This document shows positions 22,155-30,536 of a stretch of 54,034 nt of DNA, in pieces. The stretch's first letter is position 1; each line of letters opens with the position of its first letter. The notes under the pieces are model-generated. The model was not told the origin of the DNA. It saw only the letters and a list, made by a program, of their open reading frames with translations, and ran no database searches. Made by a program: the position numbers and the translations under genes. Source of the stretch: Solidesulfovibrio fructosivorans JJ] (lineage in GTDB: Bacteria > Desulfobacterota > Desulfovibrionia > Desulfovibrionales > Desulfovibrionaceae); NCBI RefSeq assembly GCF_000179555.1, contig NZ_AECZ01000027.1, positions 1 to 54,034 on the forward strand, read 5' to 3'.

Positions 22155-22514
22155 CTACACGGCCAGCAGTCGCCTGGGGTCGATTTTCAGGGCCTCAGCC
22201 AGAAGCCGGGCATTCTTTTTCCCAATGGGCCGGCGTCCGTTCTCCATCTCGGAAATATGGCGGCGCGGGATGCCGGTTGCCTCGGCAAGGGCGATCTGGG
22301 TCAGACCTTCCCGATAGCGCGCCCCGGCAAGGAAGACGCCGGGCAATTCCTCGTCCTTAAAGGGCAGCACGTCCCGCCAGGGCTTGGACGGGGTTTCCTT
22401 GGCCTCAAAGCCAAGCCCCCGCAGGTAGTCCACCGCTTCCTGGCGCTTGGACGCCGGGCCAGTAAAACAAAGCTCCACGGCGTCGGTAAGGGGCTTTTTC
22501 GTGTGTGCCTGCAT
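22155..22514 (-). CDS. HTH (XRE-family) antitoxin, HigA-like
   Basis: A 119-residue protein whose C-terminal half is a helix-turn-helix (about 70-115: LTQIALAEATGIPRRHISEMENGRRPIG). The N-terminal part would hold the toxin-binding element. I choose ATG 22514; GAGG lies about 7-8 bases upstream. The gene follows the toxin in the same direction and overlaps it by 110 bases in another frame. It probably represses the pair through the palindrome at 22783. Confidence 0.9.
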   Translation of the reverse strand: MQAHTKKPLTDAVELCFTGPASKRQEAVDYLRGLGFEAKETPSKPWRDVLPFKDEELPGVFLAGARYREGLTQIALAEATGIPRRHISEMENGRRPIGKKNARLLAEALKIDPRRLLAV

Positions 22515-22761
22515 AAACAACCTCGATGACCTTGATTTGCCCGGCCACGTCCTCCCATACGGCGACGTAGGTCGGTTTTCCTTTCTTCAGGTGACAATGA
22601 TGCCGGTTGCCGGGCAGCCGTGAATAGTTCGGCCAGTCGCCACGCACAGGACCGCCGGCCTCGATGTCCGCGATCAGGAGCGCCAGGGCTTTTTGAACCT
22701 GAAGCGGGAGGCGCATGACCCGCTTTTCGGTCTTGGCCGCGATGTTGACTTTCCAGCCCAT
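22405..22761 (-). CDS. RelE/HigB-type toxin with a C-terminal extension
   Basis: A 118-residue protein. Residues 1-92 match the RelE-like family with HCHLKKGKPTYVAVWED and ending GTHEKAPY, where family members usually stop. Here about 26 further residues follow, read from DNA that also encodes the antitoxin start in another frame. The toxin would act on translation or mRNA. Toxin-first order is the HigBA arrangement. AAGGGG precedes ATG 22761. The pair lies just behind tRNA-Asn, a common place for acquired genes, but no integrase is present. Confidence 0.87.
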   Translation of the reverse strand: MGWKVNIAAKTEKRVMRLPLQVQKALALLIADIEAGGPVRGDWPNYSRLPGNRHHCHLKKGKPTYVAVWEDVAGQIKVIEVVYAGTHEKAPYRRRGALFYWPGVQAPGSGGLPAGAWL

Positions 22762-25695: not shown

Positions 25696-26370
25696 GGCAG
25701 GCCCCAAACGGGTCACGGATGGTTTTTGAACTTGTCCCGCACGTGCTCGCTGCCGTCGTGACAGGGTCATGGTGTTTCTTTTCGTTCACAACCGCCACAA
25801 CGTCGCGCATGCGGCAAGTATAACCAACACAGCATCGGCGCGATACACGTGTGGCAATCACGCCGATATGCGTTACAACAGTGGCGTTGCTGTCCCGACT
25901 GACCAGTCAGTCGACAAGTATGTTACATATTGCAACACACCTAAAAGTTTTTACGTGAAAAAATTCCCTATTTCCTCTTGCCATCCAGGAATGGCGGCGT
26001 TACCCCAAAGGAAAGTCCCGCTCCAACATGCACGAAACGGCTGCAGCCAGTCAGGTGACACGGGGATGGTCCGTAAAACGGGCCGCCCAAAAGCGGGAAA
26101 ACCGGGGACGGGGAGTATGGCAGGCCCTGGAAAACTGGCAACGCGACAACGAACGCCCCTCGCGTCACGTTTGAGGATTGGGGATACGCCATCGCGACGC
26201 ATGCTTGATCTGTGACCCGGACGTCATGACCGGCCACCGGCCCCTTGCCGTGCAGCGACAAGGACCGCGCCAGCCTGTCCAGGCCGCGCCACGCGAGATC
26301 ACCGGACGCAAACCCGGTGGACGACGGCAGCCGCCCGCTGGCTACTTGGGGAGATCCCCGGGAGTCGGAC
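25696..26370. other. 675-base stretch without a convincing gene
   Basis: This gap is AT-richer than its surroundings at about 25790-25980. Open frames on both strands lack ribosome sites, domain motifs or normal composition. It contains the palindrome at 25896-25913 and an imperfect TGTT...AACA inverted repeat about 25920-25936. I looked for RNase P, tmRNA, SRP and 6S signatures and found none. It leads into the 30-residue gene at 26371, so it may hold that gene's promoter and a long leader. Confidence 0.5.
25896..25913. promoter_or_regulatory. Perfect 8+8 palindrome, TetR-operator-like
   Basis: CGACTGAC-CA-GTCAGTCG is a perfect inverted repeat. The TGAC/GTCA core and short spacing resemble operators of TetR-family repressors. 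No tetR-type gene lies in the window, so the regulator would be encoded elsewhere. Confidence 0.5.
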
Positions 26371-26463
26371 ATGAGCATGGACGATTTGATGACCATCGCC
26401 GGCGCACTTGTTGTTTTGGCCCTGATCGGGTTCATCTTCTACAAGCGCATCATCAAGAACTAA
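26371..26463 (+). CDS. 30-residue single-pass membrane protein, unknown
   Basis: A very short gene: ATG 26371, preceded by GGGAG at six bases, to TAA 26461. The product has an acidic head (MSMDDL), one hydrophobic helix of about 18 residues (MTIAGALVVLALIGFIFY) and a basic end (KRIIKN), so the C-terminus is probably cytoplasmic. A near-ideal intrinsic terminator starts 8 bases after the stop, which supports a real transcript. Size and layout recall small subunits or regulators of membrane complexes, but I do not recognise the family. Confidence 0.75.
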   Translation: MSMDDLMTIAGALVVLALIGFIFYKRIIKN

Positions 26464-26470
26464 CCGCCAC

Positions 26471-26517
26471 GGCCGGCGTCCGTCCAAGCACATGGACGGA
26501 CGCCGGCCGCTTTTTTT
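26471..26517 (+). terminator. Strong intrinsic terminator after the 30-residue gene
   Basis: A perfect 15-bp stem (26471-26485/26494-26508), eight-base loop AAGCACAT, then GC and seven T residues. Confidence 0.95.
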
Positions 26518-26653
26518 GCGAACGATCGTTTCGCGAATCATCCAAGACAACGCCCGCCGAGGCCCGATTTTGCGCCAAAGCAAGGCCGGAGGGTCGGACC
26601 CGCCCTCGCCGAGGGCCGTTTGCCGGGCGAGGCATCGCACGCCAGGCGATCTC

Positions 26654-27286
26654 TCAGGAATACACGGAGCCGTCGAAGCGGTCGTTGAGGCCAAGAGCCA
26701 GACGCTTGGCCTTGATGTGTTCGCTTATGGCCTCGGCCGCCTTGGCCGGATCGGGGCCGACCAGGGACGCCGCCCCGGAAACGGCCGACACCCCGGCGCG
26801 GGAAAGTGCGGCGGCCAGACCGCCGGCCATGGCCTGGCCCCCGACACCCGCCGCGAGACTGGCGGCCGCCGGCAGATCGGCGATTTCCACGTCAAGCGCC
26901 GCCGCCAGGGCGGTAAAAAAGTCCAGAACCGATGCGCCGTCCGGCCCCTCGTCCATACGCAGCACCGGGGAAATGCCCAGGTGGTCGCAAAAATCCGCCA
27001 GCCCCGAACCGGCCTCCGCGACGCCGGAGGGCGCGAGCAGCCCGGCCTGCCCCATGGCGCATGCGGCGTCGCCCGCGGCGAGCACCAGAATATCCTGGCG
27101 AATGAGTTCCCGAGCCAGCCCGGCCAAAACGCCGCCGGCCCCGCCTTCCGGCGCGTCGCCGTCGACGAAGCCGACCAGCCCGCGCACCATGCCGATGGAA
27201 AGGGCCTTGCCAAGCTTGTCCGGCATGCCGCCGCCGGCCGTGATCACGGTCTCGCCCGGGAAAACGGATCGCTGTTCCATGTCCAT
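26654..27286 (-). CDS. CooS (CO dehydrogenase) C-terminal-domain homologue without cluster cysteines
   Basis: A 210-residue protein starting at ATG 27286 (GGAGG five bases before). It aligns by eye with the last Rossmann domain of Ni-Fe CO dehydrogenase CooS: GMVRGLVGFV, LARELIRQDILVLAAG, GISPVL and the end DPAKAAEAISEHIKAKRLALGL. At each place where CooS has a C-cluster cysteine (GCNN, TGC, GSC) this protein has Asp or Gly. The N-terminal two thirds of CooS is absent. It cannot be a CO dehydrogenase by itself. The frame is intact and has a good ribosome site, so either a repurposed sensor/scaffold or a recent remnant is possible. The CooA-like gene lies directly upstream. Confidence 0.75.
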   Translation of the reverse strand: MDMEQRSVFPGETVITAGGGMPDKLGKALSIGMVRGLVGFVDGDAPEGGAGGVLAGLARELIRQDILVLAAGDAACAMGQAGLLAPSGVAEAGSGLADFCDHLGISPVLRMDEGPDGASVLDFFTALAAALDVEIADLPAAASLAAGVGGQAMAGGLAAALSRAGVSAVSGAASLVGPDPAKAAEAISEHIKAKRLALGLNDRFDGSVYS

Positions 27287-27375
27287 GCCGTCCTCCGCTG
27301 TCCGGCCGTCGGCCCAAGCCGCCCGGCCGTTGATCTTTTCGTGGTCGAAATTACTTTTTTTGTCAAAACGGTGTC

Positions 27376-27391
27376 TGTCAGGCAGCTGACA
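27376..27391. promoter_or_regulatory. CRP/FNR/CooA-type palindrome
   Basis: TGTCA-N6-TGACA is a perfect inverted repeat 90 bases before the CooS-like gene. It has the half-site spacing of CRP-family operators. On the minus strand AGTAAT, a possible -10 hexamer, lies about 28 bases downstream of its centre, roughly the layout of a class II activated promoter. The likely binder is the CooA-like protein at 27499-28149. Confidence 0.6.
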
Positions 27392-27498
27392 AATTCCCGG
27401 GCGCACCTGAAAAAATATCCCCGGCATGTCAGGCGCGACAAAGCGACACGCCGCGCCCTCGGAACCGGGCACGGCATGAAACGGATGGCCCGGGAAAA

Positions 27499-28149
27499 TC
27501 AGGCCTCGGCCAGGGCTTGCAGGGCCGTGATGTCCGGCACGCAGATCACGCCCCGGGCGCGTAGCGTAATGACGCCGTCGCGCTCGAAGCCGTTTAAGAG
27601 GGAAGACACGGTCTGGCGCGAGGAACCCACGATGGTGGCCAGCTGTTCGATACTCAGCCCATGGGCGAAGCAGCGCATGGAATCCTCTTCCACCGGGGCC
27701 TGCCCGGCTTCGTGGAGCAGCAGCAGGAGGAGCCGGCGGCGCACGTCGTGGAAAGCCAGGCCGTCGATGACCGAAAAAGCGTGGGAGAGCAGGTCCCCGA
27801 GCACCTTGACCATGGCTGTGGCCAGAGCCGGCATGGAGGTGAAAAACCGGCGCACGACGGCGACGTCGGCTTCCAGCAGTTCCAGGTCGTCCAGGGCCTC
27901 GACATGGGCGCGCGTATGCGTGGTGTAGACGTCGCCGACGTCGAGGATGGCCATGGTGAATTCCTTGTCCTTGTAGGCCAGGTAGACCCTGGCCCGGCCC
28001 TTGGCCACGATGAAGAGGCTGTTGCGGGATTCGCGCGGGGAAAAGACCTGCCGGCCCTTGGCGTAGCGGCGGCTGACGAAGGCCCCTCGCGCGGCGGCGA
28101 ATTCGGGCTTGTCCAGTTCGGCCAGCAGGTCGGCGTCGGTCAGGCGCAT
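27499..28149 (-). CDS. CooA-like CRP/FNR-family transcriptional regulator
   Basis: A 216-residue regulator with an N-terminal effector domain, a dimerisation helix and a C-terminal helix-turn-helix (LSIEQLATIVGSSRQTVSSLLNGFERDGVI). It resembles CooA of Rhodospirillum in KGRARVYL, the GD-x(4)-H segment, DGLAFHDVRRR and the GSSRQT recognition helix. The heme-ligand segment reads GDVYTTHTRAHVEA: the ferrous-heme ligand histidine is retained while the cysteine is Thr. CO or redox sensing is therefore plausible but unproven; the N-terminal proline ligand of CooA is not obvious. Confidence 0.85.
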   Translation of the reverse strand: MRLTDADLLAELDKPEFAAARGAFVSRRYAKGRQVFSPRESRNSLFIVAKGRARVYLAYKDKEFTMAILDVGDVYTTHTRAHVEALDDLELLEADVAVVRRFFTSMPALATAMVKVLGDLLSHAFSVIDGLAFHDVRRRLLLLLLHEAGQAPVEEDSMRCFAHGLSIEQLATIVGSSRQTVSSLLNGFERDGVITLRARGVICVPDITALQALAEA

Positions 28150-28286
28150 GGGGCATCCCCGGTCGGGCGCAAAAGGGAGGGCGGGAAGCGGGCCGGGACC
28201 CGGCGTCCGGGACCGCGACGCAAACTTAGCCGATATCGCCAAAAGGGAAAAGGCGCTCACGGCCGGGGCGGGATCAGTCCCCTCCC

Positions 28287-29060
28287 CTACTTGTCCGGCG
28301 GGCCCAGGTGGGTGAGAAAGGCCGTGAAATTGCCCGTGTACTCGTAGGTGCCCACGTGGGTGAACACGCTGTGCACGTCGGCGTAGATCTCGCCGCCGAT
28401 ATCCGTCCAGCGTTTGCAAAAGGCGTAATCCTCGGGAAGGTAATCCCTGGTCGCCGGGTCGATGGCCGTCTCGAAAAACGCCACGTTGTTCACGTGGTCG
28501 TCGTTGGTGTAGGCGTAATCGTAGGCCAGCTCGGGATAGGCCTCGGCCAGACGCATGAACACCTCGCGCCGTATCAGCATGAACCCCGTGGCCCCGTACT
28601 CCACGGGCAAAAGCCCGGTCCCGGGCTCGGGACGGCCGCCGGGCTTGAGCTTCACCGCATAATGCAGCGAGGCCGCCTGGGCCACGCGCATGAGCACGTT
28701 GCCCTTGATGGTGCGAAGCTTCTCCACATCCAGGTTCTTGACCGGATAAATGCCGCACACCACGTCCTTGTCCGCTTCCAGATACTTCCAGGGCAGATCC
28801 GGGGAAAAGCCGATGTCCGCATCGATGAAAAGCAGGTGCGTGAATTCCTCCTGGCGCATAAACTCGTTGGCCACCAGATTGCGCGCCCGGGTGATGAGAC
28901 TCTCGTGGGACGGGGTGAGCATGCCCGTGCGCACGCCGTTGCGCTCCAGAACCCCGATGGCGGGGATCACCGAGCGTAGATAGTTGACCGTCACGTTGCC
29001 GTTGTAGCACGGCGTGCCGATCATCAGCATGCGTTCCTTGGTCGCGGCCGGCTCGGCCAT
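28287..29060 (-). CDS. Putative glycosyltransferase (GT-A fold, Anp1-like)
   Basis: A 257-residue protein starting at ATG 29060 with GGAGG six bases upstream. It has IGTPCYNGNVTVNYL, ITRARNLVANEF, a metal-binding DxD in LLFIDADIGF, and a GATGFMLIRREVF acceptor-side stretch followed by YTNDDHVNN. This matches GT-A type transferases, with some likeness to Anp1/Mnn9-type sequences. Donor and acceptor are unknown. No signal peptide or membrane segment is present. It lies upstream of the CooA-like gene, 137 bases away. Confidence 0.8.
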   Translation of the reverse strand: MAEPAATKERMLMIGTPCYNGNVTVNYLRSVIPAIGVLERNGVRTGMLTPSHESLITRARNLVANEFMRQEEFTHLLFIDADIGFSPDLPWKYLEADKDVVCGIYPVKNLDVEKLRTIKGNVLMRVAQAASLHYAVKLKPGGRPEPGTGLLPVEYGATGFMLIRREVFMRLAEAYPELAYDYAYTNDDHVNNVAFFETAIDPATRDYLPEDYAFCKRWTDIGGEIYADVHSVFTHVGTYEYTGNFTAFLTHLGPPDK

Positions 29061-29198
29061 GAACCACCTCCGGTCATATCGGGGCACGCGTCGCGCGCAA
29101 CCCCGTCTTTTCGCCCGGTTATCCGGTCCCGCGCCGGCGAAGTCAAGACGTCCCCCCCCCCGCTTTTACACCCGGCCCGGCCTGGGCTATAGACCCCC

Positions 29199-30536
29199 AT
29201 GGCCCTGCCGCGCGACATCCCCTGCGAATCCATCATGGAGTCCCTGGCCGACGGCGTCTTCACCGTGGACACGGACTTCACCATCACCTTTTTCAACCGG
29301 GCCGCCGGAAAAATCGCCGGCATCCCCCCGGCCGAGGCGCTGGGACGCAAATGCTGGGAGGTCTTCCACTCGAGCCTTTGCGACGGGGCCTGCGCCCTGG
29401 GGCAATGCATCAAGGCCGACACCACCCTCTCCGACCAGTCGATCTTCATCGTGCGCCCGGACGGCACAAAAGTCTGGGTCAGCATCAGCGCCGCGCCCCT
29501 TCGCGACGCCACCGGCCGCATCGTCGGCGGCGTGGAAACCTTCCGCGACATCTCCGACCTGACCAGGCTGCGCAAGGAACTCGAAGGCGTGCGCACCCTG
29601 GAGGACATCGTCACCAAAAACCGGGAAATGGCCCGGCACCTCGACCTGCTCCCCCGCATCGCCCAAAGCGGCACCACCGCCCTGCTCCTCGGCGAATCCG
29701 GCACCGGCAAGGAACTCTTCGCCCGGGCCCTGCACAACCTCTCCGACCGGAAAAACGGCCCCTTCATCGCCGTCAACTGCGGGGCCATCCCCGGCGAACT
29801 GCTCGAATCCGAACTCTTCGGCCACGCCCAAGGCGCCTTCACCGACGCCAAAACCGCCCGCAAAGGCCGCTTCGCCCTGGCCACCGGCGGGACGCTCTTC
29901 CTCGACGAAGTGGGCGAAATGCCCCCGCCGCTCCAGGTCAAACTCCTGCGCGTGCTCCAGGAACGCGTCTACGAGCCCCTGGGGTCGGATACCACGCTCC
30001 CCGCCGACGCGCGCATCGTCGCCGCCACCAACCGCGACCTCGAAGCCATGGCCCGGGAAGGCACCTTCCGCCGCGACCTCTTCTACCGCCTGGGCGTGGC
30101 CCGCATCGTCCTGCCGCCCTTGCGCGAACGCCCCGAAGATATCCCCCTGCTCGTCGCCACCTTCATCGAACGCCTCAACCTGCGCCAGGAAAAAGCCGTC
30201 GGCGGCCTGACCGACGCCGCCATGCGCATTCTCCTGCGCCACGACTACCCCGGCAACGTCCGGGAACTGCAAAATATCCTGGAATACGCCTTCATCCTCT
30301 GCTCCCACGGCCGCATCGGCCCCGAACACCTGCCCGATTACCTGCGCCCCGCCCCCAGCCACCCCCAACACGCCACCGACGCCGCCCCCCGGACCATGCG
30401 CGCCATCAAATACCAGGCCGCCAAACACGCCCTGGCCCGCCACGACGACAAACGCATGGAAGCCTGCCGGGAACTCGGCATCACTAAAGACACGCTGCGA
30501 CGAATTTTGAGTCAGGGCGATGGGGAGGGGGAATAG
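29199..30536 (+). CDS. Sigma-54-dependent activator with Cys-rich PAS domain
   Basis: A 445-residue bacterial enhancer-binding protein. An N-terminal PAS domain (about 10-125) contains a cysteine cluster ([19 protein letters not shown]). The AAA+ domain has Walker A GESGTGKE at residue 165, the sigma-54 contact loop GAFTDA at residue 212, and Walker [13 protein letters not shown] Fis-type helix ([16 protein letters not shown]) ends the protein. It would activate RpoN promoters on a signal sensed by PAS, possibly redox or metal through the cysteines. Its targets are not evident here. Confidence 0.94.

Follow-up and report, generated by a model that had tools for sequence, protein, structure and literature searches.

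A cysteine-depleted remnant of CooS beside cooA in Solidesulfovibrio fructosivorans, a candidate CooA-controlled CO-response protein

In Desulfovibrio, CooA is the neighbour and the switch of the genes for CO oxidation. The window analysed here (the whole stretch of 54,034 nucleotides (nt) of Solidesulfovibrio fructosivorans JJ], contig NZ_AECZ01000027.1) carries on its minus strand a cooA gene and, next to it, a short gene related to the C-terminal part of CooS, the catalytic subunit of Ni-containing carbon monoxide dehydrogenase (Ni-CODH). This short CooS-C gene and its protein are called the mini below, and G-numbers denote the genomes of relatives. We propose, with a probability of roughly 60%, that the mini is a cooS remnant which is catalytically dead and has been domesticated as a CooA-controlled CO-response protein that acts by binding. 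CO-bound CooA would turn the mini gene on through an operator at 27376-27391, and the product, which has the C-terminal tail of the lineage but not the C-cluster ligands, is predicted to fold like domain 3 of CODH (alpha/beta). Because these ligands are lost, CO oxidation of the CODH type would not be expected and the mini should act by binding something.

The regulator gene (27499-28149, minus strand) encodes a CO-sensing, CRP-family protein of 216 residues, assigned by phmmer, the HTH_Crp_2 profile and a CooA tree in which it groups with the CooA proteins of congeners. It is a full-length CRP-type sequence nearest to CooA, the closest solved structure being CooA-1 of C. hydrogenoformans (2fmy; phmmer E 3e-46, residues 1-210). 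Its THTRA and RQTVS motifs, which we take to be the heme-ligand and recognition-helix motifs, align with those of CooA-1, and the protein may bind heme and CO. The mini gene (26654-27286, minus strand) starts with an ATG at 27286, 212 nt beyond cooA, and encodes 210 residues ahead of a stop at 26654-26656; a ribosome site, GGAGGA (27291-27296, minus strand), lies 4 nt before the ATG and aligns with that of full cooS. Both genes are where the initial annotation had placed them, and the open frame and strong ribosome site that it described are present.

Profile matches, alignment and predicted fold identified the mini as a cysteine-depleted domain 3 of Ni-CODH. It matched the Prismane profile PF03063 (E 5e-14, profile positions 348-469 of 513), TIGR01702 (E 9e-24, 83.6 bits, below the curated whole-protein cut-off of 478; the four other minis described below gave 46.8-82.8 bits) and residues 412-628 of the D. 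vulgaris CODH 6vwy (E 5.5e-30). Hybrid-cluster protein (HCP), a PF03063 relative, matched the mini more weakly than CODH did, and a separate HCP is encoded in the same genome (TIGR01703, 748 bits). As this HCP is the sole other PF03063 match, and the mini protein found only itself at E <= 0.001, a full cooS elsewhere in the S. fructosivorans genome, a possibility left by the initial annotation, was rejected. The N-terminal domains of Ni-CODH, with the B- and D-cluster cysteines and the C-cluster histidine, are absent from the mini, in which the match begins at CODH residue 412. By eye in alignment A2, it has Gly43, Asp73 and Gly114 at cysteines 448, 478 and 519 of 6vwy, which we take to be the C-terminal C-cluster ligands. 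That assignment is in line with PMC6344411, as far as its available text goes. The earlier description of a CooS C-terminal domain with Asp or Gly in place of the cluster cysteines held when the positions were mapped on this structure, all three ligands being lost. In the five minis together the C-terminal cluster cysteines are gone at 14 of 15 positions (by eye), G181 retaining one, and are substituted by Gly, Asp, Arg, Ser, Tyr, Ala, Lys or Pro. The stretch EWYSEK...NILGS is deleted or replaced in every mini; all five share one further cysteine, C100, which is not at any of the three ligand positions, and those of G091 and G105 have a CxxC tail. The fold, predicted for single chains, agrees with CooS domain 3 (alpha/beta), CooS rows being present in the input alignment; the fold mismatch that the initial annotation would have taken as a refutation was not seen.

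The initial annotation had CooS cut to its last ~210 residues. The C-terminal domain does remain, including a tail (ALGLNDRFDGSVYS, 26657-26698, minus strand) common to the CooA-linked full CooS proteins of the genus, but the start region is also kept and lines up with full cooS DNA, so the mini is better described as the product of an internal in-frame deletion. This DNA-level alignment extends over about the first eight codons (27263-27286, minus strand; MDMEQRSV, compared with MAKEPKSV in the full CooS of G167); as protein, the first 11 residues alone matched full CooS no better than shuffles did (118 of 300 reached its level). The DNA upstream of the three minis of the genus can be aligned with the corresponding region of seven full cooS genes through TTTGTCRGCnnnCTGACAGAC, GTAA, GGAGGA and the start ATGGnCAnGGAA, G181 departing from the aligned start in the base after the ATG. 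From residue 9 onward the mini aligns to the G167 CooS from residue 413, and thus ~400 codons are missing in frame. The order in G167 is cooA, cooS, cooC and a small membrane-protein gene, that at the mini loci of the genus is cooA, mini and the small membrane-protein gene, and no cooC was found beside these minis in the fetched stretches.

Among 14 genomes sampled from the genus (G174 being only 69% complete), minis adjoin cooA in S. fructosivorans, G109 and G181; full cooA-cooS loci are present in G025, G133, G097, G160, G121, G143 and G167, full CooS without a CooA match in G080 and G152, and neither in G058 and G174. Across the family, the mini profile A1 matched in 119 of 288 genomes and minis were recognised in five, a count that leaves out the short frames of G278, G061 and G268:C54; the remaining two, in G091 and G105, come from outside the genus, each from a different one, and are convergent with cooA. 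Short frames in G283 and G027 were rejected because they run to contig ends, and that of G268:C23 because it is a cooS split over two frames. Apart from G181, which has a full CooS on a different contig, the mini genomes gave no further CooS match. Frameshifted remnants, which would be a sign of a pseudogene, were looked for in relatives, and the minis of the four other genomes proved to be open beside cooA. There was no clear mini among the matches listed for a phylum sample (395 genomes, 256 matching; G352, G328, G370 and G335 left out). A single-protein search of public genome contigs gave no relative of the S. fructosivorans mini, and a search of such contigs with A1 gave four loci, three full-length CooS and the G181 mini. 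Of 120 places with a CooA-like gene, 19 had no CooS inside 5 kb, the nearest being ~10 kb away in four of these, and the stretches fetched around five of the 19 (G065, G022, G118, G075, G160) contained no mini. CooA-like genes in G118 (L118, 4133-4813), G075 (L119, 3953-4714) and G065 (L116, 4007-4762) lie directly upstream of very long frames resembling, by eye, membrane antiporter/Ech-type subunits, and the stretches fetched there contain no CooS. G160 has a second cooA (L120, contig C151, 5645-6424; 77% identical), whose upstream neighbour is the one found at the mini loci; no operator was seen, the contig stopping ~230 nt past this gene.

Between cooA and the mini lies a CooA-type operator-like site, TGTCAGCTGCCTGACA (27376-27391, minus strand), whose 3' end is 89 nt from the mini ATG in both S. 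fructosivorans and G109. The site is an exact match to TGTCRGCNNNCYGACA, which occurs once in the window and twice in the 4.67-Mb genome, and it differs at 3 of the 14 specified positions from the published consensus TGTCGGCNNGCCGACA, as given in the accessible text of PMC545781. In the genus, 10 of the 14 genomes, the same ten that have CooA, carry exact TGTCRGCNNNCYGACA in the interval that separates cooA from the mini or from cooS. An operator-like site precedes the mini in all five mini genomes; the one ahead of the G091 and G105 minis, TGTCAGCCAGCCGACA, is given for D. desulfuricans cooSC in the same portion of PMC545781. Since the CooA-type promoter is kept, we infer that the mini is induced by CO.

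The mini also appears to have been kept by purifying selection after the deletion. Comparison of the S. fructosivorans and G109 minis gave 112 differences over 210 aligned codons, distributed 24/35/53 by codon position (third-position excess, binomial P 0.0015), and three methods gave dN/dS values of 0.40, 0.21 and 0.25, compared with 0.21, 0.055 and 0.077 for cooA. None of 3600 neutral simulations (9 settings of 400 runs) came down to the observed 0.396, the lowest being 0.45, and this supports the earlier view that the gene is maintained. Between the two genomes the mini is 82% identical (codon alignment), operator and promoter together 80% and the leader 75%; the DNA before the operator is 63% identical and that downstream of the mini 74%, with six gaps in ~100-190 nt; in the codon alignment the 21-nt difference in mini length is a single 7-codon gap. 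The G091 and G105 minis have 42.5% residue identity and an identical tail, CDRCGGRFSPFS, and their frames stay open at largely saturated third positions (135 of 207 differ). S. fructosivorans and G109 have the same short start, so the deletion probably took place before the two diverged and the measured selection would have acted on the mini itself.

In a tree of 38 CooS-C sequences the S. fructosivorans, G109 and G181 minis joined each other (0.927) and then the full CooS of G167 (0.826), on long branches. A tree of 24 CooA sequences placed G181 with the second CooA of G160 (0.983) and with G167 (0.791), apart from S. fructosivorans and G109, and put the CooAs of G091 and G105 together (1.0), apart from four other sampled CooAs of their genera. 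It is plausible that the truncations within the genus arose separately, and we see an even chance that CODH catalytic subunits became stand-alone, CooA-controlled pseudoenzymes on two or three independent occasions among sulfate reducers, giving a CO response without CO oxidation. In G031 (L065, 3645-7202) the gene after cooA is NapH-like (4Fe-4S) and has a CooA-type site; next comes a 617-residue CooS relative, which has lost the N-terminal cluster cysteines (by eye) and kept the three C-terminal ones; this degenerate CooS is a possible intermediate stage.

Several observations weigh against the proposed role. The structure models were built from alignments that include CooS rows, which biases them toward the CODH fold; the ligand substitutes differ among copies, and G181 has one cysteine left. 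Selection is looser on the mini than on cooA (YN00, 0.21 versus 0.055), the identity of operator and promoter (49 nt) between S. fructosivorans and G109 is not above that of the mini itself, and a plain nucleotide alignment splits the 21-nt difference into four gaps (2, 4, 7 and 8 nt). The number of independent origins depends on genus-tree supports of about 0.79-0.98. Nitrogenase was not singled out, and its presence was rejected as a clue to the partner, since all 17 genomes examined have nifD although only 5 of them have a mini and 12 do not. Finally, the link to cooA noted in the initial annotation exists for all five minis but is not specific to them, CooA lying within 5 kb at 96 of 133 non-mini CooS places (Fisher P 0.32; CooA from 285 genomes and CooS from 288, with six second-piece rows omitted).

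In one rival explanation the mini is a feedback partner that tunes the CO response or brings it to an end by binding to CooA or RNA polymerase. Each mini is a neighbour of cooA and has its own upstream operator-like site, the mini promoter holds one of the two exact CooA-type sites in the S. fructosivorans genome, and the CooAs of G091 and G105 group as if cooA and mini had travelled jointly. However, the adjacency is inherited, because full cooS likewise adjoins cooA, and we consider this explanation unlikely. Alternatively, the mini could be a decaying pseudogene, left by a deletion in cooS and open by chance in GC-rich DNA. Relative to cooA its dN is raised 3-4-fold, the ligand cysteines have been replaced differently in each copy, and cooC was not found beside the minis of the genus; openness is itself weak evidence, as the frame survives in 15-47% of neutral runs simulated without indels, and the four short gaps, if real, would be mutually cancelling frame-shifting changes. 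Decay is nevertheless quite unlikely, being disfavoured by a dN/dS below that of every simulation, by the codon positions, by the single 7-codon indel set against six gaps downstream, by the open frames of the distant minis and by an operator-like site kept in all five.

The second exact CooA-type site of the S. fructosivorans genome (L053, 1501-1516; C17:24402), also present in G109, precedes a NapH-like 4Fe-4S gene by 124 nt, and the mini might be an electron-transfer or membrane accessory working with this protein under CooA control; in G031, such a gene and site lie between cooA and the degenerate cooS. We hold this to be very doubtful: the NapH-like protein occurs in 135 of 285 family genomes (E <= 1e-50), and among the 14 genus genomes the exact site before its gene is found only in S. 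fructosivorans and G109, whose promoters are nearly identical, and may be due to chance. On these grounds the gene was rejected as a CooA target. A metal chaperone or scaffold still handling Ni or Fe-S, as descent from a metalloenzyme domain, C100 and the CxxC tails might suggest, is highly improbable given the loss of nearly all cluster cysteines, the lack of a full CooS match in every mini genome except G181 and of cooC beside the genus minis in the fetched stretches.

For the CO-response protein that we favour, conservation of the folded core, of the non-ligand cysteine and of parts of the tail suggests that the mini binds a partner. Our preferred role for it is that of a CO-stress protein binding a CO-sensitive partner through core and tail, as CowN sustains nitrogenase; that it protects such a partner is a tentative guess. 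CowN, CooA-controlled and sustaining nitrogenase according to the available text of PMC8047169, is the nearest functional precedent: it too is non-enzymatic, is encoded next to cooA and has a CooA-type operator; unlike for CowN, enzyme protection is only proposed for the mini. Pfam and NCBIfam scans of the minis gave no CowN family, and no comparison aimed at CowN was made.

Downstream, a terminator-like stem-loop of 17 pairs (26470-26509, no strand assigned; pattern scan only) separates the mini from a convergent gene (26371-26463, plus strand) for a 30-residue protein resembling a single membrane span, found at the same locus position in G109, G181 and G167. Further away, a gene for a HipB/Y4mF-like, antitoxin-type helix-turn-helix protein (22155-22761, minus strand; weak match) overlaps a small upstream frame, the two possibly forming a toxin-antitoxin pair. 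There were no Rfam matches at 26000-29200, a promoter scan of 26400-28300 found no sigma-70-type promoter, and plasmids gave no match.

The CooA-linked Ni-CODH of Desulfovibrio and Solidesulfovibrio is encoded in the order cooA-cooS-cooC (PMC2901600 and PMC545781, in their available text). The mini has the same type of locus, a similar operator and start region, the domain-3 fold and, in the genus, the same tail, but it is without the N-terminal two thirds, the cluster ligands and the EWYSEK stretch, and its genus loci have no neighbouring cooC. The mini-CooS of Thermosinus carboxydivorans is also a shortened CooS relative, but has complete metal-cluster motifs according to the accessible part of PMC8776680, whereas the ligands are absent from the present minis. 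Searches of the open-licence PMC literature brought up no description of a stand-alone CooS-C without its cysteines. CooS surveys discarded short or motif-less hits, by their own statement in the available passages of PMC6344411 and PMC8776680, and motif-less CooS would therefore fall in a blind spot of both. In S. fructosivorans, a CO sensor has been retained without a full CooS being found, and a CooA-type promoter is carried by what appears to be a dead CODH domain; the mini would offer a testable case of an enzyme becoming a response protein.
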